A DNA stretch of 32,277 nt from Halobacteriales archaeon SW_8_68_21. GTDB taxonomy: Archaea > Halobacteriota > Halobacteria > Halobacteriales > Haloferacaceae. Every line of letters begins with the position of its first letter. Positions within the stretch are counted from its first letter, which is position 1. This document shows positions 19,560-30,146 of the stretch, piece by piece. The position numbers and the translations under genes were made by a program. The notes beneath the pieces are model-generated. The model was not told the DNA's origin. It ran no database searches and saw nothing but the letters and a program-made list of their open reading frames with translations. Location of the stretch: positions 1-32,277 of the forward strand of contig PXST01000045.1 in NCBI GenBank assembly GCA_003023405.1, given 5' to 3'.

Positions 19560-19756
19560 ACGCGTCCGAACCGTCGGCAAGTGAAAAGTCTATAGCGCAA
19601 ATTATCAGGAGTAAACACTGCCGCGACGGCTCGGTCCGATCCGGCCGCGCCGACGCCGGGAGACGAGACAGCAGTGGGACCGCCCAGCCGACCGACCCTA
19701 CAACCCGTCCTGCCGGAACCCCTGCGTTTTCAGGCGCGAACCCCCAGCGTCCGAAC

Positions 19757-20812
19757 GTGACCGCGAACGCGACGTTCGACTTCGACCTGCTTGCGCGCCT
19801 GACCGACACCCCCGGCCCCGTCGGCTACGAGGACCGCGTGCGCAACGTCGTGCGCGACGAACTCCCGGCCGTCGACGCGGTGCGGACGGACGCGATGGGG
19901 AACGTCGTCGCGACCGTCGACGGAAACTTGAACCCCGACTACGAGGTGCTCGTGGCCGCGCACATGGACGAGATCGGACTGATCGTGAGCGGCGTCGACG
20001 ACGACGGCTTCCTCTCCGTGGAGCCGCTCGGCGGCTGGAACCCGGACGCGCTCCGCGGGCAGCCGGTCACCGTCCACACCCGCGAGCGCGACTACGACGG
20101 GGTGGTGGGGATCAACGCCGCGCACACGGCCACCGAAGAGGCCCCCGACGACTGGACGCTCGACGACGCCCACGTGTTCACCGGTCTCGACCCCGACGAG
20201 GCGACCGAGGCGTTCGGCGTCGGCGACGTCGTGACGTTCGACAGCGACCTCCGCGAGCTGGGCGAGTGCGTCGCCGGCTCCTCGCTGGACGACCGGGCGG
20301 GCGTGTACGTGCTGTTGGAGGCCGCGCGGCTCGCCGACCCGGACGTGACCGTCAACTACGCCGCGACGGTCCAAGAGGAGGTCGGGTTGCGGGGCGCGGC
20401 GGCCCTCGGCGTCGACGTTGACCCCGACCTCATCGTCGCGCTCGACGGGACGCTCGAACAGTCGTACCCCGGCGTCGACCCGTCGAACGCGATCACGACG
20501 CTCGGCGACGGCGTCGGGATCAAACGGAAGGACGCGAGCGTCGTCCCGACGCCCGGGGTCGTGGACCGCCTCGAATCCGTCGCGGAGAGCCGCGACGTTC
20601 CGTTCCAGCGCGAGGTGTCGTGGAACATCGGGACCGACACCGCGGCGCTCCAGAACGCCGGCGGCGCGCGACCTGTCGGCGCGCTCTCGATTCCCGTCCG
20701 CTACCACCACTCCGCCGTCGAGACGGCCGACGCGCGCGACATCGAGGCCGCCGTCGACCTGCTCACCGCCTTCCTCGATAGCGAAGAGGGGACGAACTAC
20801 GCGCCGGAGTGA
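19757..20812 (+). CDS. M42-family aminopeptidase
   Basis: 351 residues of the M42 (TET/deblocking aminopeptidase) family: dinuclear metallopeptidases that assemble into large tetrahedral particles and trim peptides from the proteasome. Metal ligands are visible as H69 and D71 (AAHMDEIGLIV), the bridging Asp (SSLDDRAGVYVLLEA), the catalytic and ligand Glu pair (ATVQEEVGLRGAAA), an Asp (LIVALDGTLEQ) and the last His (PVRYHHSAVE). N-terminal TDTPGPVGYEDRVR and DAMGNVVA are also typical, as is the inserted PDZ-like domain between about 80 and 170. Start is GTG at 19757, since homology (LLARLTDTPGPVGYE) begins within ten residues. It stands alone, convergent with the PadR-like gene. Confidence 0.9.
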   Translation: MTANATFDFDLLARLTDTPGPVGYEDRVRNVVRDELPAVDAVRTDAMGNVVATVDGNLNPDYEVLVAAHMDEIGLIVSGVDDDGFLSVEPLGGWNPDALRGQPVTVHTRERDYDGVVGINAAHTATEEAPDDWTLDDAHVFTGLDPDEATEAFGVGDVVTFDSDLRELGECVAGSSLDDRAGVYVLLEAARLADPDVTVNYAATVQEEVGLRGAAALGVDVDPDLIVALDGTLEQSYPGVDPSNAITTLGDGVGIKRKDASVVPTPGVVDRLESVAESRDVPFQREVSWNIGTDTAALQNAGGARPVGALSIPVRYHHSAVETADARDIEAAVDLLTAFLDSEEGTNYAPE

Positions 20813-20874
20813 GGGGTGGGCGGTCGAAACGGTCGCAAGATCACCGCGCCGTCAGTTGGGGATGCGGTCGAAGT

Positions 20875-21174
20875 TCATGCGTCAGCGCCGGCGACCCACT
20901 CGTCGCGGCGGGCGAGCGCGTCGCGGGCCGCGTCGGTGAGGCCGTACTCGTTGGTGCGGCGGTCGCGGGCGCGCTTCGCGACGAGGCCGCGGTCGACGAG
21001 CTTGTCGAGGTTCTGGTAGAGCCGGCTGTGGTTGATCTCCTCGTCGTAGTAGTCGGCGAGGTCCGTCTTCAGTGAGAGTCCCTTTCGATTGTCGACCTTC
21101 GCGAGGACTCGCAGGAGGTCGCGCTGGAAAGCGGTGAGGTCGGCGACGACGTTCTTGTCGGTCGTCGGGCTCAT
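20875..21174 (-). CDS. PadR-like winged-helix transcriptional regulator
   Basis: 99 residues. The winged helix is visible: TAFQRDLLRVLAKVDNRKGL, then the recognition part EEINHSRLYQNLDKLVDRGL and the wing KRARDRRTNEYGLTDAARDA, followed by a short terminal helix. This is the common haloarchaeal PadR-type layout (L-T-x-F-Q-R at the start, a Tyr-Gln-Asn-Leu-Asp-x-Leu recognition helix). A strong Shine-Dalgarno-like GGAGGTG lies just upstream of the ATG (21180-21187 on the minus strand), so this gene, unlike most here, seems to have a leader. The signal sensed is unknown. It is convergent with the M42 peptidase gene. Confidence 0.8.
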   Translation of the reverse strand: MSPTTDKNVVADLTAFQRDLLRVLAKVDNRKGLSLKTDLADYYDEEINHSRLYQNLDKLVDRGLVAKRARDRRTNEYGLTDAARDALARRDEWVAGADA

Positions 21175-21420
21175 CCGGCACCTCCGAGAGCGTAGTCGCC
21201 GTCGTTTTTACTGAGCGGTGCCTCTGCCGTCGCGCGGGAGTTAATCCCCGCAGTTGCCATCGTTGGCATGGTTATGTGTTTGGGCACAGAACCCGACCCG
21301 GCCGGGGGGATTCCTACAGTTTCATCGCGAGCCGAGGGTTCGTCGCTCGGGCTCCGTGGATACATGTGACCACGTCTGTTACTTGAATGTACTGGAAGTG
21401 CTATGGAGTACGATCCGGCC

Positions 21421-21434
21421 TTATATTAAATATA
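21421..21434 (+). promoter_or_regulatory. TATA-like box of the PhiH1-type repressor gene
   Basis: TTATATTAAATATA lies 19-32 bases before the ATG at 21453, which fits a leaderless transcript and supports that start over upstream in-frame codons. The symmetrical AT block could also be a site of autoregulation. Confidence 0.5.
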
Positions 21435-21452
21435 GGTGCGTTTGTGTATCGT

Positions 21453-21782
21453 ATGAGATACGCGGGAGAATGGATGTCTGCGGCAGATGACCGGATTCTG
21501 GAGTATTTGTCTGAACATGAATCTGGCTCTCCAACGAAAATGAAGAAGGAAGGTCCAATCCGATATTCTCGCGTACAGGTCCATAGACGGTGTAAGAAGC
21601 TCGCAGAGAAGGGGCTGATCAAGGACCTCGGAAACGGCGTCTACATAATCACTGACGACGGCGAGGCCTACCTCGAAGGTCGACTTGACACCGAAAGCTG
21701 GCGCTACATCGACGAGGACGCCGACGCGGTCGAGGCGAACAAGTCGGCTGACGAGGAAACGTCGAACGGAGGCGCGAGTTAG
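21453..21782 (+). CDS. PhiH1-repressor-like winged-helix protein
   Basis: 109 residues. MSAADDRILEYLSEHESGSP followed by YSRVQVHRRCKKLAEKGLIK and the wing GNGVYIITDDGEAYLEGRLD is the layout of the haloarchaeal virus PhiH1 repressor family: a helix ending in an E-x-x-S/G-P stretch, an R-V-x-x-R-x-x-x-L recognition helix, and a Y-x-I-T-x-x-G-E-x-Y-L wing. The C-terminal tail is acidic and probably disordered. Such genes are frequent near proviruses and integrated elements and probably keep them silent. It marks the left side of the accessory region that reaches tRNA-Lys. A decayed relative follows directly. The target is unknown. Confidence 0.8.
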   Translation: MRYAGEWMSAADDRILEYLSEHESGSPTKMKKEGPIRYSRVQVHRRCKKLAEKGLIKDLGNGVYIITDDGEAYLEGRLDTESWRYIDEDADAVEANKSADEETSNGGAS

Positions 21783-21802
21783 ATGCGGGACTCCGTCTGT
21801 GG

Positions 21803-22138
21803 ATGGGCGGTCTTGACGAGCGCATCCTCGAACGGTTAGCCGACAACGGTGACGCGACCGCGTAGGAGATCGCGTTCGACCTGCTCGGTCGCGTGAGCCA
21901 AGGGTAAGTGAGTGACCGATGTGAGGTGCCGGCCGACGCTGAGCTCGTCGAGTGTCACGAGCGCGAGATTGTCGGTAGTCGTGTGGAGACTTACTGGTCG
22001 ATCACGACGTGGGGCGAGCTGTTCCTCCGTGAGGACGTTAATCCAAGTTTGGACGTGCCGGTACCGAGTCCGCGGCCGCCGCATGCTACGCGGCCGGGTG
22101 AATGGGCAGGATTCTATCTAAAATCCTCCTACCAGTGA
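21803..22138 (+). pseudogene. Decayed PhiH1-repressor-like winged-helix gene
   Basis: From 21803 a frame reads MGGLDERILERLADNGDATA, matching the start of the neighbouring repressor (DDRILEYLSEHESGS), but meets an in-frame TAG (21863-21865) and a TAA soon after. In a shifted frame from 21908 the sequence continues as RCEVPADAELVECHE and TYWSITTWGELFLREDVNP, the recognition and wing parts of the same family, then runs into unrelated codons until 22138. So one nonsense change and one frameshift have broken it. The last bases overlap the 3' end of the unknown minus-strand gene. Confidence 0.6.
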
Positions 22139-22803
22139 GGTTGTAGCTCGTTATGGATAAAGTTAACAATATATCTATTTCCGACAGACGGTTCTATGAC
22201 CCTAATAAATCCGTTCTTAGAGACTTCCATTTTTGTCTGACGACCATTGTAGGAAAATTGTAGTCCGAGTTGGTTCTTATCAGACCGATTTAGAACAGCC
22301 CCCATGTCTGGGTCCGAGACTACGTCTGTTCCATAGACCGTCCCCTTCTCTGCCTGTCTGCCAGCGTTATTGAATCCATACTTCCATGGGTCGGCGTTTG
22401 GCCGAGTTTGTGCGTATGAGTCTAAATCTATAGTCGGACGACTGAATGACTGTCCCGTTTGATTTTCCATAATATCAAACACAAATAAACCTTCAGTATC
22501 GTCCACAAGCACAAATTTTCCAGGGGCAATCAAGAATTCAGTCATGCTGGTAACCTTCTCCCACTGGTCATTTGTAACAATTTGTCCTCCCTGAACAGAT
22601 GGTACTGATAATTTCTCGGTATCCTCAATGAGTGCCCGACCTTTCTGGAGATTGATTTGGCTTCCAGTTGGTAGCGAAGTCTGTTGAACTGGGCCGACAT
22701 TAACACAGGTGTTTAGCGTAAACCCTCTGCTTTGCCGAGTAGTTTGAAGAGAACTAATCGAGCCAAAATTGCCCGAGGAAACGCCGATAATTCCGGATTT
22801 CAT
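22129..22803 (-). CDS. Unknown AT-rich protein divergent from the GHKL ATPase
   Basis: 224 residues that I do not recognise. It is rich in Ser, Thr, Asn and Gln (for example SSGNFGSISSLQTTRQSRGF) and has many beta-type segments (MTEFLIAPGKFVLVDDTEGL, FVFDIMENQTG, QFSYNGRQTKMEVSKNGFIR). There is no signal peptide, membrane span or Cys cluster. The protein is much less acidic than its haloarchaeal neighbours, and the gene has A/T-rich codons, as does the GHKL gene, so both probably arrived together from a lower-GC haloarchaeon or virus. It is transcribed away from the GHKL gene; the shared AT-rich space holds two inverted repeats. A partner, sensor or immunity role in a defence module is only a guess from location. 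ATG at 22803 is the first in frame. Confidence 0.55.
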   Translation of the reverse strand: MKSGIIGVSSGNFGSISSLQTTRQSRGFTLNTCVNVGPVQQTSLPTGSQINLQKGRALIEDTEKLSVPSVQGGQIVTNDQWEKVTSMTEFLIAPGKFVLVDDTEGLFVFDIMENQTGQSFSRPTIDLDSYAQTRPNADPWKYGFNNAGRQAEKGTVYGTDVVSDPDMGAVLNRSDKNQLGLQFSYNGRQTKMEVSKNGFIRVIEPSVGNRYIVNFIHNELQPHW

Positions 22804-22804
22804 A

Positions 22805-22831
22805 ATACCCTCTGCGTGAACTTCAGGGTAT
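22805..22831. promoter_or_regulatory. Inverted repeat ATACCCT-13-AGGGTAT before the unknown gene
   Basis: Perfect seven-base arms (22805-22811 and 22825-22831) end one base before the start codon at 22803. AT-rich TATA candidates lie at 22842-22852 and 22862-22872 on the minus strand, so the repeat falls where transcription would begin: an operator, or a hairpin masking the start codon. Confidence 0.35.
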
Positions 22832-23005
22832 CATTATTCATGATTTAATTTTAACCTATCCAATATATATGCTTTTCGCCAGATAAGAATTCATGCGTGT
22901 TGAGTGGTCCACCCCGGGGAGTACAAGTTACTGTGAGTTTAAAAACAGATTTACAGCAATATCGACTGAAAATCCAGCAAAATTGGGATCTAATTCGGCA
23001 CATTC

Positions 23006-23030
23006 GTTGTTAGATGATACAGTTAACAAC
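23006..23030. promoter_or_regulatory. Inverted repeat GTTGTTA-11-TAACAAC before the GHKL gene
   Basis: Perfect seven-base arms (23006-23012 and 23024-23030), 40 bases before the ATG at 23071. The location overlaps the likely TATA/BRE zone of the GHKL gene, suggesting repression of the module. AT-rich sequence makes chance repeats more likely. Confidence 0.3.
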
Positions 23031-23070
23031 ATCTCTCACACTCAAAACTGTTAATTGACATCAGTATAGA

Positions 23071-23207
23071 ATGTTTGTTATGGCAAGTTCAGCAGACGGT
23101 GAAGAACCAGAAATGGAATCTTCATTCGAACAGCTAGAATCCTTCAAGAAAAAAGTAGCTTAGATAATCGTGGCAATATCGATATAAATTTTGATTTTCT
23201 GGATCAG
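23071..23207 (+). other. 5' coding segment of the GHKL ATPase gene, out of frame by one base
   Basis: An ATG at 23071 (or 23080) opens a 30-codon frame, MASSADGEEPEMESSFEQLE then SFKKKVA, stopping at 23161. In the other frame, immediately overlapping, codons from 23152 to 23207 read SSLDNRGNIDINFDFLDQ and run straight into the annotated GHKL frame, but have no start codon. The two parts join if one base is read twice (or one A is restored) at the run of six A at 23149-23154. The joined protein would have the acidic N-terminus and first helix that GHKL ATPases need before the N box. So this is a broken gene, a programmed -1 frameshift or a homopolymer sequencing error. Confidence 0.6.
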
Positions 23208-25721
23208 GTGTCGAGTCAGTTGTATAGAAACCCTCGCAGAGCGGTCGAAGAACTGGTTTGTAACAGCTATGATGCTGGTGCGACAGAATGTGAGGTTATA
23301 TATCCCGAAGAGGAAGGGGACAGATTGTTTGTATTAGATAATGGTAGTGCGATGGATGACGAAGAGATGAACCGATTATGGGATATTGCAGATAGTCCAA
23401 AAAAAGAGTTAGAAAAGGATCCTAATGAAGATCGTATACAGAACGGGCGACAACAAATTGGAAAGTTTGGCATTGGTAAACTAGCTGCTTTCGCTGTAGG
23501 TAATGAACTCACGCACATTTCTACTATGGACGGTAGAACAAGAGTTGTTACGGTGGATAAGTCAGATATTAAGGACCGTAATTATGCTGACCCACCTAAG
23601 TGCGAAATATACGGGATGGATGAGGACGAGGCTAGACAGTATGTTGAAGAAGAGATCCTTCCAGATAATGTAACTAATCCTTGGGAAGAGGTTAGTGACG
23701 AATGGAATTCATGGACCCTTGCGATGGTAGATGAGATTAAGCCGTCAGTCGTTGAAGGTAGAACCTACTCATACCTTCTAAAACGGATGATCCGCACCGC
23801 GATTCCACTATCAACGAATTTCTCCGTCCAAGTCAACGGTGAGAGTATCGGCGAACGAAACCCTGATTCGGAAAAGCTGGCAAACCTAAAGATCGGTACA
23901 AATGATGAATTTCGCGAACATCTAGAGTCGGATCTTAAGCAAGCATGGGTGGACATTGACGAAGAAATTGACTCTGTGGATGAGGTCGAATCGGGTAGAT
24001 ATGAATGTGAGACTACCGAGGTCCAGAGCTATGAGGAGGGTCAGGAACCACGACTGGGCCTACAAGTTCCAAACTTAGGGCCTATTTCTGGGCAGGCTGC
24101 TATTTACGAGGATATACTAACCACGCCGAAGCGAGAAAAAAAGGATGTTCAGGACTATGGATATCGTATCTCAGTCCGAGGGAAGTTGGTGAATAGAGGT
24201 GAGCCGAATTTTGATACCCCGCAGAAATCATATAAATACTGGAGTCGTTTCCTAGCTACTGTTGAAATCCCTAACTTGGATGATGCTATTCTACTACAAA
24301 GAGACTCATTTGATGAATCAAAAATCGAGTCTCGTATCACACGAGAAGTTCTAGATAGCGTATTTAATTACCTGCGTGCCAAGGCCCGACATCAGCTAGA
24401 AGAGGAAAACCATGATCCGGGCACCTTTTTCAAACGTCTCAGTACCCTTTCACCACAAAAAGTACCTGAGGCGCTCCAGGGTCTGGTTGAGAATGATGAT
24501 GTACCCTTCCCGAGTGGAGGTTGGGATGACGTTGATGTGGAATTCAAGGCTTGCGGAACTGACGCTGATTTAGCTCACTACGAGTCAGAAGATCATGCCA
24601 TAATAATTAATACAGATCATACACTCCTGAACGCACTCAATGAGGAGAGTTTCCCTGACACGTCGCGTGAGGTAGTTGGAGAAGCTTTGGCTGGCCAACT
24701 TCTTGCTATTGGATATTTCAGACACAACAACGTCGATCCGAGCCTGATCGAGGGCGCAGTTGATATTATTGAAAATTCTGCCCGATCGGCAGCTAAACTA
24801 ATACAAGACCAACCGCAGTATTATGGAAATAAACTAACTACTACAGTACAGGAGGGTGACGATCCATTTGAGAAGGCTGTGGTTGATGCGTTTCTTAATT
24901 TAGGGTTGGATGTCGAACACTACGGCGCTTCGGATAAACCAGATGCTGTGGTAACGATATCACGTCCGGATCAGAATTTCAGAGTTGCTGTCGAAGCAAA
25001 AGGAGGGACCAGTACATCGGCTGATCATAAGGAAGTCAGTATTAGTACGATACACGAGCATGCTGAGGATTTTGAATGTCAACACTGCGTTGCAGTTTCT
25101 TCAGAAGAAATCTTCCAGCTACGTGGTGGCTCACCAGATGATGATAGTAGCCTAATTGAGCAAGTAAATTCCCATGAGGATGTCTCTATTATGACTGTCG
25201 ACATGCTTAAAGAGATGTTACGCCGACATCAACAGAACCCGTATGACTACACTCAACTAAAGAATATATTCAAATTGAACTCCCCGGACACTGATACGGA
25301 AGTTCAAATCAACCTCAAAAATGAGATCACGGGAGAAAATACAGGGAATGACCTTTTTGAACCTCGAGATGACGAGAACCGTCCTTTACTCGAAGTCTCT
25401 GATCTCCCCGAGTTAGTTCAGGCTTGGTGGCGGCAGATGCCGAGGAGTGAGAAGATGGTTCGAACAATATTAGAGGCAGCAAAGGAACAGCAAGACAATT
25501 TTGAGTCTAGAGGAGATCGTGGCCAGAGACCTCGTCTGGGTATGATATACAACACTGAGGAAATAATGAATGAAGGTATACAAGACCGTGATATTGAAGC
25601 TGTTCTCTCATCTGCCAGCCTGACAGGCCTTGCCACGCTTGGTGAGGACGGAAAGTATTACACTATCGAGCAATCTGTGGACGAAATTATGGACAAAATG
25701 GACGTGTCTGCCAGTCAATAG
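23208..25721 (+). CDS. MutL/MORC-like GHKL ATPase with C-terminal PD-(D/E)xK nuclease domain
   Basis: 837 residues from the GTG at 23208; the true N-terminus is probably upstream in another frame. The GHKL site is clear: N box AVEELVCNSYDAGATECEV (about 12-30), Mg/adenine loop LFVLDNGSAMDDEEM (40-54) and lid GRQQIGKFGIGKLAAFAVG (80-98). A transducer-like middle follows, ending in the Lys/Arg-rich QDYGYRISVRGKLVNRGEPN region and a helical stretch. Near 577-600, KPDAVVTISRPDQNFRVAVE then AKGG gives D-x(n)-E-x-K, a restriction-endonuclease-fold active site. The C-terminal 60 residues (GDRGQRPRLGMIYNTEEIMN on) may be a winged helix. GHKL proteins of this kind are described in restriction-modification contexts as relatives of eukaryotic MORC. 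The likely role is ATP-gated DNA clamping and cutting in phage or plasmid defence. Codons are AT-rich, unlike the neighbours. Confidence 0.8.
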   Translation: MSSQLYRNPRRAVEELVCNSYDAGATECEVIYPEEEGDRLFVLDNGSAMDDEEMNRLWDIADSPKKELEKDPNEDRIQNGRQQIGKFGIGKLAAFAVGNELTHISTMDGRTRVVTVDKSDIKDRNYADPPKCEIYGMDEDEARQYVEEEILPDNVTNPWEEVSDEWNSWTLAMVDEIKPSVVEGRTYSYLLKRMIRTAIPLSTNFSVQVNGESIGERNPDSEKLANLKIGTNDEFREHLESDLKQAWVDIDEEIDSVDEVESGRYECETTEVQSYEEGQEPRLGLQVPNLGPISGQAAIYEDILTTPKREKKDVQDYGYRISVRGKLVNRGEPNFDTPQKSYKYWSRFLATVEIPNLDDAILLQRDSFDESKIESRITREVLDSVFNYLRAKARHQLEEENHDPGTFFKRLSTLSPQKVPEALQGLVENDDVPFPSGGWDDVDVEFKACGTDADLAHYESEDHAIIINTDHTLLNALNEESFPDTSREVVGEALAGQLLAIGYFRHNNVDPSLIEGAVDIIENSARSAAKLIQDQPQYYGNKLTTTVQEGDDPFEKAVVDAFLNLGLDVEHYGASDKPDAVVTISRPDQNFRVAVEAKGGTSTSADHKEVSISTIHEHAEDFECQHCVAVSSEEIFQLRGGSPDDDSSLIEQVNSHEDVSIMTVDMLKEMLRRHQQNPYDYTQLKNIFKLNSPDTDTEVQINLKNEITGENTGNDLFEPRDDENRPLLEVSDLPELVQAWWRQMPRSEKMVRTILEAAKEQQDNFESRGDRGQRPRLGMIYNTEEIMNEGIQDRDIEAVLSSASLTGLATLGEDGKYYTIEQSVDEIMDKMDVSASQ

Positions 25722-25828
25722 TACATCCAGAGCAAGAAGTAAAGCTGGAAAAATATTTTAAATTGCTGTAGACAAACCACCACCTAACTTACTGGATCTC
25801 CCTCGGACAAGTGGTTCTTTATTAATAA

Positions 25829-26113
25829 CTAATCGTCAGAATTGCCTTCTGTAGCATTATTTTCAATAAATTCCCATTCAAGGGTGTCCGGGTCAACCCG
25901 CACCACACCAATGTTCATGCTGTTCTCGATTTCGTCGAGGATAACACGATCACGAACATGAGACTCCACGGAGAGTTCTTCGAGCCGCCATTCTTGCGTA
26001 TCTAACTCCGGAGGAACATCAGCTCCAGACACGATGTTCACCGATCGAAGTGTCCCGTACCGTTCCGACGTGACCTCCACTTTGATCGGGAGCTCGACGA
26101 GGTCACCGCTCAT
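25829..26113 (-). CDS. Small hypothetical protein
   Basis: 94 residues from the ATG at 26113 (MSGDLVELPIKVEVTSERYG). It is acidic and mixed alpha/beta: strands such as LVELPIKVEV and LRSVNIVSGA, a helix around SHVRDRVILDEIENSM, then GVVRVDPDTLEWEFIENN. No motif is recognised. An AT box (about 26139-26146 on the minus strand) lies 26-33 bases before the start, fitting a leaderless message and favouring 26113 over the in-frame start at 26134. It is divergent from the DNA methyltransferase gene. In this place a small regulator of the restriction-modification genes is possible, but nothing in the sequence shows it. Confidence 0.5.
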   Translation of the reverse strand: MSGDLVELPIKVEVTSERYGTLRSVNIVSGADVPPELDTQEWRLEELSVESHVRDRVILDEIENSMNIGVVRVDPDTLEWEFIENNATEGNSDD

Positions 26114-26238
26114 ACGTCGACTTCGGCGGTCCACGATATGAAATTTTCTCAGCGACAGCCGTCTCTCAGACGAGTCTCTCCCCTAACAGTTCTTCCAGTA
26201 CCAACGATTAAATACGGTTGAGGGGCACTCTCCGATAG

Positions 26239-27429
26239 ATGAGCCAGCAGGACCTGACCTATGTCGATCTGTTCGCGGGGGCTGGAGGGCTCTCCGTCGG
26301 CTTAGAGCGAGCCGGCTTCGAGCTCGTCCACGCCGTCGAGGTCGACGACGACGCCCGCACCTCGTTCGCGAACAATCGCGAGGGTCTGGAGCCGGAGGAG
26401 ATGACGCAGGACATCAGCGAGATCGACAACCAAGACATCACGGAAGTTGTCGGTCGCGACACCGTCGATCTCGTTGCCGGCGGGCCGCCCTGTCAGGGCT
26501 TCTCTGAAGTCGTCAGCCCGGACGGCAGTGACGACCGGAACCACCTCTTCGTGAACTTCATCTCGTGGGTGAACGAGCTGGACCCGAAGGCCGCGCTGTT
26601 CGAGAACGTCCGCGGGATGCAAAACACCGCGGACGGGAAGTTCTTCGACGCCGTCGAGGAGTCGTTCGACCAGATGGGCTACGATGTCACCCACCGCGTC
26701 GTGGAGGCCTCAGACTTCGGCGTTCCTCAGCACCGTCACCGACTCTTGGTCCTCGCGACGAAGAAGTCCGAAACCGAACTCCCCTTCGACGGCTTCGAGC
26801 TCGATCCCGTCGACGTTCCCGGCGTCATCGACGGGATCGGCGACCTTCCCGAAGTGGGTCCCGGGGAGACGAAGACCGAGTACGACACCGAGCCAGAGAC
26901 AGTTGTCCAGCGAGATCTCCGCGGCGATGTCGACGACCTCACCCACCATCAGGCCGCGAACCACTCTGACGACATGGTGGAGATGCTTTCACACATTTCT
27001 GACGGCGGAAATCGGACCGAGATTCCCGACGAGCTACAGCCGTCCTCGGGCTACCACAACTCCTACTCCCGACTGGATTCTGAGGAGCCCGCGGTCGCCA
27101 TCACGTCGAACATGTCAAAGCCGTCGAGCGCGCGATGTGTCCATCCGTTTCAGGACCGGGGGCTGACCCCGAGAGAGGGTGCCCGTCTCCAGACGTTCCC
27201 CGACTCCTACCAGTTTGAGGGTGCGCTCGGCGCGGTTCGCAAGCAGATCGGCAATGCCGTCCCGCCATACCTCGCCGAAGCAGTCGGATACTACCTCAAG
27301 CAGAGTGTCTACAATCAGCAACTCTCTGACGACGAGCGGGGTCGGATATACCAACTCCGGTGCGGCGGGATGCGTATCAGAGCTAATCTACAGTCTCATG
27401 GCCTGATATTAGAAATAAGTCCATACTAA
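26239..27429 (+). CDS. C5-cytosine-specific DNA methyltransferase
   Basis: 396 residues of the m5C methyltransferase (Dcm/HhaI) family, which transfers a methyl group from SAM to cytosine in a specific DNA sequence. Motif I is YVDLFAGAGGLSVGLERAGF, motif IV GGPPCQGFSEV with catalytic C85, motif VI FENVRGM, motif VIII VPQHRHRLLVLA, and motif X QIGNAVPPYLAEAVG. The target-recognition region is the acidic section between VIII and IX (about 165-300). A TATA-like TTAAATAC lies about 29 bases upstream. The last 40 residues after YLKQSVYNQQ look AT-richer and non-homologous, as if the 3' end had been joined to foreign sequence. With two nuclease-like genes downstream it probably provides self-protection. 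The recognition sequence cannot be read. Confidence 0.92.
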   Translation: MSQQDLTYVDLFAGAGGLSVGLERAGFELVHAVEVDDDARTSFANNREGLEPEEMTQDISEIDNQDITEVVGRDTVDLVAGGPPCQGFSEVVSPDGSDDRNHLFVNFISWVNELDPKAALFENVRGMQNTADGKFFDAVEESFDQMGYDVTHRVVEASDFGVPQHRHRLLVLATKKSETELPFDGFELDPVDVPGVIDGIGDLPEVGPGETKTEYDTEPETVVQRDLRGDVDDLTHHQAANHSDDMVEMLSHISDGGNRTEIPDELQPSSGYHNSYSRLDSEEPAVAITSNMSKPSSARCVHPFQDRGLTPREGARLQTFPDSYQFEGALGAVRKQIGNAVPPYLAEAVGYYLKQSVYNQQLSDDERGRIYQLRCGGMRIRANLQSHGLILEISPY

Positions 27430-27446
27430 TAGTAGAGAAGCGCAGT

Positions 27447-27899
27447 TTATATTCTCAGTTTTTGGAATGGACCAGGTCTGAACAGGCTCGCCACTGTCAA
27501 GAGGGTCAGCATTATCGCTACGATACCCAGTATTCTACCTGAAGACGGACCGGCTTCTGAAATAGTGGTGGATATATTTACTATTTCTACCATCGCAATA
27601 ATAAACGTGAACAACGCGATCCGCGTGTTTGTGTCGTTCTGAGCTTCTCTGAATTCTGAATCGCGTGCCACCTCAAACCCTTTTTGCGTGAGCTGATAGA
27701 CCCCTTCTCCGGAATTTTCGATGAGACCGTTGCGGTCGAGGAAGCGCACTGCCCCTTGAAATTCGGCTACTGACAGTGACCCAATCCTCTCTAATAGTGG
27801 ATGGGTCGTGTCAATATCCTGATCCCGGAGTCGGTAATACTTTCTCTCTAAATCCAGTTCGTAGAGGGTCCTAAGCACCACTTTCCAGTTTTGATCCAT
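27447..27899 (-). CDS. Winged-helix protein with two C-terminal membrane helices
   Basis: 150 residues from the ATG at 27899 (MDQNWKVVLRTLYELDLERK). The first 85 residues look like a winged helix: YRLRDQDIDTTHPLLERIGS, SVAEFQGAVRFLDRNGLIE and the wing GEGVYQLTQKGFEVA. Two hydrophobic segments follow: IALFTFIIAMVEIVNISTTI and ILGIVAIMLTLLTVASLF. A DNA-binding or sensor domain tethered to the membrane is implied; such wHTH-TM proteins are frequent in haloarchaeal defence and virus regions. An AT box near 27933-27944 and 13-base leader fit this start; an upstream in-frame TTG (27926) is less likely. It is tail-to-tail with the methyltransferase and divergent from the nuclease genes. Function is unknown. 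Confidence 0.6.
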   Translation of the reverse strand: MDQNWKVVLRTLYELDLERKYYRLRDQDIDTTHPLLERIGSLSVAEFQGAVRFLDRNGLIENSGEGVYQLTQKGFEVARDSEFREAQNDTNTRIALFTFIIAMVEIVNISTTISEAGPSSGRILGIVAIMLTLLTVASLFRPGPFQKLRI

Positions 27900-28028
27900 A
27901 GCTACAGGAACGTTTTCTTCTCTCAAATAATCTACGTATTATAACGAATCTAGGAGATTCAATTTGACTGATCCTATCCGTAATGCCAACTTTTCTAAGA
28001 GTGTCTGATAAGTGGATAGTATACTCAG

Positions 28029-29219
28029 ATGAGCAAATGGAGCGACGATCGTGCCGATCACGAAGACGAAGCGATCAAGACGTTTCTGACGACTCACTTC
28101 CCAACCCCTCCATTGGAGGATCAAGCCGATCTATCGGACTACAGTGGCTCAGAAGAGGATATCTCTGACGTTGAGCATGAGACGATCGACGCACTCCTCT
28201 CTGAGGCCGGCACACAGTTCACATCCTCAAAGGGGACGCTCGGACTTGCGATTGATTTCGTCGTCCTTGCCGAGGAGCTTGCCAATCACGACGACTGGCT
28301 CGCTGGCTTCGACCCGGATATCACCGTCGACGACATCCTCGGTCGGTACGAAAGCATGGCGAAGTCGTCGCTGACGCTGAAACGCGGCGATGTCCGTGAG
28401 GGGATTCGGACGTTCCACAACGAGCTGATCGAGCTGTTCCGTGAAGACTTGAATCGGACCAATTTCCCGAGTTCTCCGGGCCACCACACCGGCGAGTGGG
28501 AGCGATACGACGATATGCTCGAACTCGCGTTTCGACTGTCACGAAACGGTCGATACGTCGCCGCGCAGAAACTGTTCGACCTCGGATTGGAACGTCTGGA
28601 GTCGAGTGAATACGAGCGCCGGGACCCGCCATTCGAGGATCCCTTCCTGAAGGTCCTCCGTGACTACGAGCGGAAGGCACCCAACGAGCAGGGCGGCTCG
28701 GCGTATCAAGCGCTCTGCTACGGCTACGTCAAGGCTGAATGGCCACATCTCTCACTCCGCGCGAGCAAGGTCCGAACGGGCTCGTCACGCCAGCAGCGGT
28801 ACGGTGACATCGACGGCTACCACGGCCCGGACCTCATGATCTCAATCGAGGTCAAGGACCGGGTGATCGACGGCTCAAACGTCCGCGCTGAGCTCGGCAC
28901 GATGATGAAGGTCGCTGAGAACACGACCGCGATCGCCGTTGCGATCTGTACCGAGGTAGGTGCGGAGGCCCGCAAGACACTCGAAGAAGCTGGGGTCAGA
29001 GTTCTTGACGACACAGATCTTGAACGCCAGCTCCGACTGTGGGACTATCATAAGCAGAACCGCGCTCTCCACGGGATGGTCCACTTCTTCGCGAACATCG
29101 AAGAGAACCCTGACGGCGTTCAGCGATTACTGCGATTCGTTTCGAGCATCGATCCGAACAACCGCGTGCTTGATCATCTCGCTGACTCTGACGTACAGAC
29201 GGGGGCTGACGGAACATGA
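28029..29219 (+). CDS. PD-(D/E)xK restriction-endonuclease-like protein
   Basis: 396 residues. The catalytic motif is seen at about 260-277: RYGDIDGYHGPDLMISIEVK followed by D, giving a P-D-x(n)-E-V-K signature, with preceding RASKVRTGSSRQQ as a likely DNA-contact loop. N-terminal two thirds are helical (DFVVLAEELANHDDWLAGFD; YDDMLELAFRLSRNGRYVAA). The C-terminal part AIAVAICTEVGAEARKTLEE and GVRVLDDTDLERQLRLWDY is typical of nuclease-fold ends. The arrangement (helical domain, then D/ExK core) resembles some type II enzymes such as the SacI type, but I cannot confirm a family. Its stop overlaps the next gene's start (ATGA), so both are made together, and the C5 methyltransferase lies upstream across one opposite-strand gene. 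Likely the cutting part of a type II restriction-modification system. Confidence 0.7.
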   Translation: MSKWSDDRADHEDEAIKTFLTTHFPTPPLEDQADLSDYSGSEEDISDVEHETIDALLSEAGTQFTSSKGTLGLAIDFVVLAEELANHDDWLAGFDPDITVDDILGRYESMAKSSLTLKRGDVREGIRTFHNELIELFREDLNRTNFPSSPGHHTGEWERYDDMLELAFRLSRNGRYVAAQKLFDLGLERLESSEYERRDPPFEDPFLKVLRDYERKAPNEQGGSAYQALCYGYVKAEWPHLSLRASKVRTGSSRQQRYGDIDGYHGPDLMISIEVKDRVIDGSNVRAELGTMMKVAENTTAIAVAICTEVGAEARKTLEEAGVRVLDDTDLERQLRLWDYHKQNRALHGMVHFFANIEENPDGVQRLLRFVSSIDPNNRVLDHLADSDVQTGADGT

Positions 29220-29935
29220 AGCGGCCAGTGGTCCAAGAACGATTCGTCAACCCGGATGCGGAGCTCCCCTACGGACTCGAAGTCCCCCAAGTTGTAAACG
29301 CCATTGAGAGCTTCTACGAATACTGGCACCAGGTAAACGAGTGGCATCTCGAACAGGGGTATGGGCGGTTCCACGAGCAGTTCCGAGCGAACAACGCGAT
29401 TGGTGGATTCGTCAGTCACCGTCTGACGACTCGTTTTGTCGAAGAGTCGCCGGATTTCGTTCTCAACCGTCTCGACGACGGGTACCCAGACCTACTCTAC
29501 GACGGGACAGATTACGAGTGGCCCAACGATTACGCCATTAAGGATTCCGACAACGGTCCCGGATTAGAAGTCAAAGCGTCGAAAGGGAACACTTTCTATG
29601 CGCACCACAATGTCGAGGGCTGGCTCCTCGGAGTCCACTATCTTATAAACGCTCGAAGCGAGTCTACCACAGACGACGCACCTGCCCCGGATAACACACC
29701 ACCCATCAAAATTACACAGGTATTGTGCGCAGGTATGGATCATGATGATTGGGAGTACCGCGACGCCGAGGGTTCGAATCGGACGAACACCAGCGAACTG
29801 AAAGCACAAGTCGGGCTCCACGAGATGCGGAAGAACCCTATCATCGAAATGGAGCCAGCGATTACCGGTGAAGGCGATCTCCTACGAGAGTACAAACAGA
29901 CCCACGCCAAGTTCGATCCAGACTACTCAGTGTAA
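29216..29935 (+). CDS. Second PD-(D/E)xK nuclease-like protein, coupled to the first
   Basis: 239 residues. After an aromatic-rich helical start (VVNAIESFYEYWHQVNEWHL), the motif pair DGYPDLLYDG (about residue 90) and GPGLEVKASKGNTFYAHHNV (about 113-132) gives P-D-x(n)-E-V-K, the restriction-endonuclease fold. NNAIGGFVSHRLTTRFVEE earlier supplies the helix with a Glu that often assists the site. The rest (ITQVLCAGMDHDDWEYRDAE, KAQVGLHEMRKNPI) is not recognised. Translational overlap with the preceding nuclease-like gene suggests subunits of one enzyme, a nicking pair, or one protein for DNA specificity and one for cutting. Codon use is mid-GC, unlike the AT-rich GHKL module. Confidence 0.65.
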   Translation: MKRPVVQERFVNPDAELPYGLEVPQVVNAIESFYEYWHQVNEWHLEQGYGRFHEQFRANNAIGGFVSHRLTTRFVEESPDFVLNRLDDGYPDLLYDGTDYEWPNDYAIKDSDNGPGLEVKASKGNTFYAHHNVEGWLLGVHYLINARSESTTDDAPAPDNTPPIKITQVLCAGMDHDDWEYRDAEGSNRTNTSELKAQVGLHEMRKNPIIEMEPAITGEGDLLREYKQTHAKFDPDYSV

Positions 29936-30073
29936 CTAGACAGAAACTCTCACAGCGCTGTACACGCGACAGAAGGAAGCCGTTTCTCGTTACTGCTCAT
30001 GACTCCTTCTCTTGAACGGGTGTATAACTGCTGATAAATGTCACTGAAAGGAGAAAAAGTATTTACAAGGAGC

Positions 30074-30146
30074 GGGCCGGGCGCGATTTGAACACGCGAC
30101 CGACGGATTAAGAGTCCGTCGCTCTCCCTAACTGAGCTACCGGCCC
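30074..30146 (-). tRNA. tRNA-Lys (anticodon CTT)
   Basis: A complete 73-base cloverleaf on the minus strand, without encoded CCA. The acceptor is GGGCCGG/CCGGCCC, D stem GCTC/GAGC, anticodon stem ACGGA/TCCGT with loop CTCTTAA giving anticodon CTT (reads AAG), variable loop CGGTC and T arm GCGTG-TTCAAAT-CGCGC. A TATA-like TTTTACGA lies about 25-30 bases upstream near 30169-30176. Its 3' end faces the accessory island, a usual integration target, but no second copy of the 3' end was found to the left. Confidence 0.95.

Follow-up and report, generated by a model that had tools for sequence, protein, structure and literature searches.

A MORC-like GHKL ATPase-nuclease gene in a tRNA-anchored haloarchaeal restriction-modification island, and the linkage of its family to DNA methyltransferases

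Results

The GHKL gene and its genomic island

We analysed a stretch of 32,277 nucleotides (hereafter, the window) of contig PXST01000045.1 from Halobacteriales archaeon SW_8_68_21 (assembly GCA_003023405.1), whose genome comprises 2.44 Mb in 55 contigs with a completeness of approximately 80%. Some genomes of its genus group have GHKL genes equal in score and length to those of Halorubrum salsamenti and Halorubrum lipolyticum, which suggests that it belongs to Halorubrum. The gene under study encodes a GHKL ATPase fused to a predicted nuclease (23208..25721, plus strand; 837 codons open), and it is located in an island of 9,236 bp (20837..30072), bounded on one side by an M42 peptidase gene and on the other by the 3′ end of tRNA-Lys (30072..30146, minus strand). 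Downstream of it lie the genes of a C5 cytosine DNA methyltransferase (26239..27429, plus strand; DNA_methylase, 3.3e-67) and of the type II restriction enzyme of this methyltransferase, a PD-(D/E)xK protein (28029..29219, plus strand; PADLOC REase_II, 1.3e-33). Upstream, in the divergent orientation, is the gene of a 224-residue protein (22129..22803, minus strand). A preliminary description of this DNA had considered the GHKL gene and its divergent neighbour as a compact two-gene defence system; this boundary proved too narrow, since the C5 methyltransferase, the restriction enzyme and a second nuclease-like protein are present in the same island.

The limits of the island were established by comparison with two relatives (G119 and G150), in which blastn matches the window at 19704-20836 and from 30073 on, with 163 unmatched bases in between. 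The flanks are 92-93% identical in the M42 peptidase gene and 88-89% identical in tRNA-Lys and the next gene, and the distance from the peptidase gene to the TRAP gene is 415 and 426 bp in these genomes. On the right, the island stops exactly at the 3′ end of tRNA-Lys, its insertion point; the 3′ end of a tRNA gene is the usual site for integrated elements. Searches for direct repeats on the flanks of the island and for copies of the tRNA end gave none that was convincing.

A MORC-like ATPase fused to a predicted nuclease

The GHKL ATPase motifs are found at the N-terminus of the window protein and are conserved across the family; an S5-type second domain follows, and the predicted fold of the model is MORC-like. 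This ATPase module comprises residues 1-402 (23208..24413, plus strand). The motif GhXhhpXXRhl of MORC proper was not recognised by eye in the S5 domain, where residues 318-328 read GYRISVRGKLV, with a Lys in place of the expected Arg. The putative nuclease domain extends over approximately residues 551-664 (24858..25199, plus strand) and contains an E-D-ExK site (E555, D579, E596 and K598), whose residues are conserved in 47 to 61 of 62 aligned sequences; a profile of this domain built from 35 sequences matches HindIII with an E value of 0.0012. The nuclease domain was assessed by sequence alone, given that the structure lists of the full-length model were filled by matches to the ATPase. The presence of ATPase and nuclease in one protein, noted in the preliminary description, was borne out. 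P0001-P0004, P0006 and a few other proteins carry an annotation for PF09254, which we take to be the FokI cleavage domain; it was absent from the hmmscan matches of the window protein, and we did not rely on it. Four relatives of the GHKL protein were found on viral contigs, with 24-35% identity, and three phage records showed partial matches; these searches gave no sign that the subfamily is virus-borne.

The 5′ end of the gene deserves separate consideration. In the related proteins P0002-P0007 the start precedes the window GTG at 23208 by 26 to 44 residues, and the codons conserved among them are split in the window, the first part being in the frame of an ATG at 23080 (23080..23163, plus strand; matching the start of P0002) and the second in the frame of 23208, in which a profile search carries the GHKL match upstream to 23139 without a stop. 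Because these upstream codons are conserved in the relatives, the 837-codon reading frame does not represent the conserved gene start. Relatives with an intact 5′ end exist, and the split between two frames raises the possibility that the window copy is inactive or contains a sequencing error; its cause may be a true lesion, slippage of the frame or faulty assembly. It is conceivable, although we consider it less likely than not, that this copy is decaying or dead while the family functions as the methyltransferase-linked nuclease discussed below. The neighbouring second winged-helix gene, which is also broken, agrees with this possibility. However, 837 codons remain open, the catalytic residues are kept, the protein is 81% identical to P0002, initiation at the GTG would retain the GHKL motifs, and the split is located in an A-rich run that could have led to frame slippage or to faulty assembly.

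The GHKL family is linked to DNA methyltransferases of several classes

Across the family, 57 of 70 genome loci contain, within 2.5 kb of the GHKL gene, a methyltransferase belonging to one of four clusters. The open reading frames of these loci were picked by a simple rule of length or composition, the clusters were defined by BLAST from the same loci, and their identity was assigned by Pfam on exemplars. The linked enzymes correspond to permuted N4/N6 (46 loci), C5 (5), beta N4/N6 (5) and type-I-like N6 (1) methyltransferases, and in 29 of the 57 loci the two genes share a strand and are separated by no more than 20 bp. When each side of the GHKL gene was scored by distance, a methyltransferase was present in 55 of the 119 side-windows that reach to 2.5 kb, in 9 of 105 at 2.5-5 kb, and in 4 of 78 at 5-7.5 kb. 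In the regions around genes of the 224-residue protein family, which served as a second control, the frequency was 2 of 18.

In a quick tree of 65 GHKL proteins, which carries a long-branch warning, the methyltransferase class changes at least seven times among the labelled rows, and the C5 partners fall on three separate branches. The window protein groups in this tree with that of Haloarcula pellucida (support 100), and both are accompanied by a C5 enzyme.

Other arrangements were also observed. In three haloarchaea (L032, L033 and L034), the GHKL gene adjoins a set formed by a ResIII helicase, an SMC/AAA_23-type ATPase and an N6_N4 methyltransferase. On a plasmid of Halobaculum magnesiiphilum (L282, 2875-5953), a C5 methyltransferase gene overlaps the gene of a distant GHKL ATPase by approximately 100 nt, a further haloarchaeal pair of GHKL and C5 genes.

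A complete type II unit beside the GHKL gene

The C5 methyltransferase gene starts 518 bp past the GHKL stop codon, with one small gene intervening. The product of the latter is a 101-residue protein (25829..26134, minus strand) whose homologues precede the same methyltransferase in 3 of the 17 regions fetched from relatives (L181, L182 and L183). The restriction-enzyme gene was detected in 20 genomes, and 17 fetched regions plus the window gave 18 (partial hits in G432 and G169 were left out). The methyltransferase and restriction-enzyme genes are adjacent or nearly so in all of them, the methyltransferase being split into two open reading frames in L186. The GPD...ExK residues of the restriction enzyme are invariant in the 19 aligned rows, which represent 18 distinct loci (L031 and L189 are the same). 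Between the two genes, the window has a gene for a small winged-helix or membrane-like protein (27447..27926, minus strand; weak HTH and Mrr_N matches). It is absent from this place in two related islands (G152 and G133), where the positions equivalent to 27372 and 27982 are less than 200 bp apart, and it is likely a later insert. The restriction-enzyme gene overlaps by 4 nt the gene of the second nuclease-like protein, of 239 residues (29216..29935, plus strand; PD...EVK recognised by eye), which has a homologue at the same place in both related islands.

These two islands adjoin tRNA-Val, not tRNA-Lys, and share with the window several blocks with 72-83% DNA identity: 20904-21146, 21228-22115 (in G133 only to 21775), from 25869 or 25948 to 27372, and from 27982 to 29958 or 29936. 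The first block, at approximately 79-80% identity in both, lies in a 99-codon open reading frame (20875..21174, minus strand), a conserved left marker of the island that also matches in Halorubrum lipolyticum (L036). It is followed by a winged-helix regulator gene, WH1 (21387..21782, plus strand; phrog_2440 at 8e-34), and by the remnant of a second winged-helix gene (21791..22114, plus strand), which contains two in-frame stops and is 68% identical over 108 residues to the intact copy of Halorubrum lipolyticum (L036, 5380-5715). Homologues of WH1 precede the GHKL gene in Haloarcula pellucida (L031) and Halorubrum lipolyticum, where the family GHKL gene likewise comes after a winged-helix pair.

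The slot between the regulators and the 101-residue gene varies in content: it is almost empty in G133, it measures approximately 5.2 kb and holds a gene of the 224-residue family together with that of a 455-residue protein in G152, and in the window it is occupied by the genes of the 224-residue and GHKL proteins. The 455-residue protein (L182, 7349-8716), which sits where the window has the GHKL gene, is weakly CoiA nuclease-like (E = 0.02).

This arrangement is compatible with a different role for the GHKL protein, that of a stand-alone defence nuclease resembling VcSduA of the Shedu systems, in which the clamp would sense the structure or replication of phage DNA with no need of a methyltransferase and the type II unit would be co-cargo of the island. 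The methyltransferase has its own restriction enzyme in every region, the slot (22116-25868) is interchangeable, VcSduA is reported to act as a single gene (PMC12137116, portion available), and a subset of nuclease-bearing paraMORC3 genes is described as lone (PMC2292703, portion available). Nevertheless, the proximity of a methyltransferase in most family loci, often in an operonic arrangement and with a clear drop with distance, argues against this alternative. In addition, DUF4263, the Shedu signature, was not matched by sequence at E ≤ 1 in the window protein, its C-terminal piece, or five relatives (L031, L035, L037, L058 and L094). We regard a stand-alone function as a serious possibility, with perhaps a third of the weight.

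The 224-residue protein lies outside the GHKL system

In the preliminary description, the 224-residue protein was seen as a sensor, partner or control protein of the GHKL enzyme. The two genes are indeed neighbours, divergent and similarly A/T-rich, which is what favours a two-gene system. However, a family GHKL gene was present in none of the 20 regions fetched around homologues of the 224-residue protein (16 of the 67 matching genomes plus four more; the gene itself was not picked as an open reading frame in L156 and L158), and no homologue appeared in the fetched GHKL loci besides the window's own copy. Three genomes carry both genes, which are together only in the window, and in the slot of G152 the 455-residue protein takes the place of the GHKL protein. 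The recurrent linkage that was looked for was thus not observed, and a two-gene system of this kind seems to us highly improbable.

The protein belongs to the phrog_18169 group. Nine close homologues were obtained from the protein database at E ≤ 0.001, and among the 392 genomes of the order, 67 matched its profile and 87 matched phrog_18169. Nine of the 20 regions contain winged-helix regulators of the island type, and nine contain an integrase-like cluster (integrase by Pfam on one exemplar). In five regions (L144, L146, L147, L149 and L151) the gene is in a run with two unassigned genes of approximately 357 and 215 residues, a possible conserved operon. With the window protein as query, no phage record and no viral contig was matched. 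The link to viruses is indirect: the homologue from L157 is 35-36% identical to relatives in the haloviruses BJ1 and Humcor1, whereas these viral proteins are only 18-19% identical to the window protein (alignment A4). In both viruses the relatives follow a regulator gene and are near the Orc1, integrase and MCM genes, and the idea of a virus structural protein found no support. The family profile from alignment A4 gave no PDB match at E ≤ 5, and the structure model (mean predicted local distance difference test score of 47) was not used. The most plausible view of the 224-residue protein is that it is cargo carried by integrative elements or viruses, independent of the GHKL gene in the variable slot.

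Discussion

A proposed methylation-guided role for the GHKL protein

The reading that we consider most likely, at about even odds, is that the GHKL protein is a restriction nuclease gated by ATP, which has joined a type II restriction-modification island and spares the DNA methylated by the linked methyltransferase. According to this model, ATP binding would dimerise the MORC-like module around DNA, and closure of the dimer would bring the two C-terminal nuclease domains together, after which the DNA would be cut. The adjacent C5 methyltransferase would protect host DNA both from the restriction enzyme with which it is paired and from the GHKL enzyme, and the target would presumably be virus or plasmid DNA.

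Several observations weigh against this proposal. The 101-residue gene, on the opposite strand, separates the GHKL gene from the methyltransferase gene, and a GHKL gene stands beside the C5 methyltransferase and its restriction enzyme in only 3 of the 18 regions: the window, Haloarcula pellucida and G379, the last of which (L186, 3037-8162) has a different GHKL protein of 646 residues and an OLD-like ATPase with TOPRIM beside the same two enzymes. Since the pairing of methyltransferase and restriction enzyme is constant in these regions, the pair does not need the GHKL enzyme; the GHKL gene of the window has joined a type II system that is complete without it, and this weakens the claim that the C5 methyltransferase serves it. 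In the family, 13 of the 70 loci lack a methyltransferase from any of the four clusters at a distance of up to 2.5 kb, although three of these loci (L053, L077 and L078) include less than 300 bp of downstream sequence. To this are added the split 5′ end of the window copy and two results on the nuclease domain, namely that a haloarchaeal-only profile of 7 sequences found no nuclease match and that the last part of the 35-sequence profile gave matches to arenavirus nucleoproteins as well, the best of them at E = 0.0086. The arenavirus matches were set aside because they cover only profile positions 90-154 (89-152 in one).

A further proposal, which we find rather improbable, is that the GHKL nucleases have no fixed site recognition, that the MORC clamp would load on DNA, and that an exchangeable methyltransferase, of at least four classes, would determine the sequences at which DNA is marked and cut; if true, the same clamp-cutter could be re-aimed by swapping the methylase.

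The strong methyltransferase linkage of the GHKL family, the changes of methyltransferase class, and the occurrence of two nucleases next to a single C5 methyltransferase in a haloarchaeal island are new. The prokaryotic MORC-like clamps are likely cousins of the eukaryotic MORC chromatin proteins, and a family of clamp-nucleases that pairs repeatedly with different methyltransferase classes provides a testable link from DNA methylation to clamping of the MORC type. In addition, the island gives an example of the way in which defence genes are exchanged by haloarchaea, in a slot next to a tRNA-anchored restriction-modification unit.

Comparison with known systems

No paper on a haloarchaeal GHKL-nuclease with a C5 methyltransferase was found in the open-access literature searched, and the terms GHKL, ATPase and MORC do not occur in an archaeal survey (PMC10609329). 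The closest description is that of paraMORC3, MORC-like ATPases with fused nucleases proposed to reside in restriction-modification neighbourhoods (Iyer, Abhiman and Aravind 2008; PMC2292703). In the available portion of that source, the architecture resembles that of the window protein, in that a GHKL ATPase at the N-terminus is followed by an S5-type domain, and a domain of the restriction-endonuclease fold with E-D-ExK residues is found at the C-terminus. A nuclease-bearing subset is described there as standing alone, without conserved neighbours, in contrast to the methyltransferase linkage of the family studied here. An hhalign comparison of the family with a phage protein annotated as ParaMORC3 gave a probability of 98.0, covering only columns 25-364 of 840, that is, the ATPase part.

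The restriction enzymes BbrUII and HgiDII also bear a GHKL domain, and M.HgiDII and M.BbrUII are C5 methyltransferases (PMC5867850, portion available); however, the window protein scores 63.7 bits against their family (NCBIfam NF050001), below the cut-off of 550, and the match is confined to residues 4-219. In VcSduA (Shedu type I-D), a fusion of a GHKL ATPase and a PD-(D/E)xK nuclease stops phage and both activities are needed (PMC12137116). The window protein shares the fusion of a GHKL ATPase to a predicted nuclease but lacks the DUF4263 match, and VcSduA is presented as a one-gene system in the part of that source available. Finally, the genes at 26239 and 28029 are of the classical type II restriction-modification kind, to which the island of the window adds a GHKL ATPase clamp and a second nuclease.

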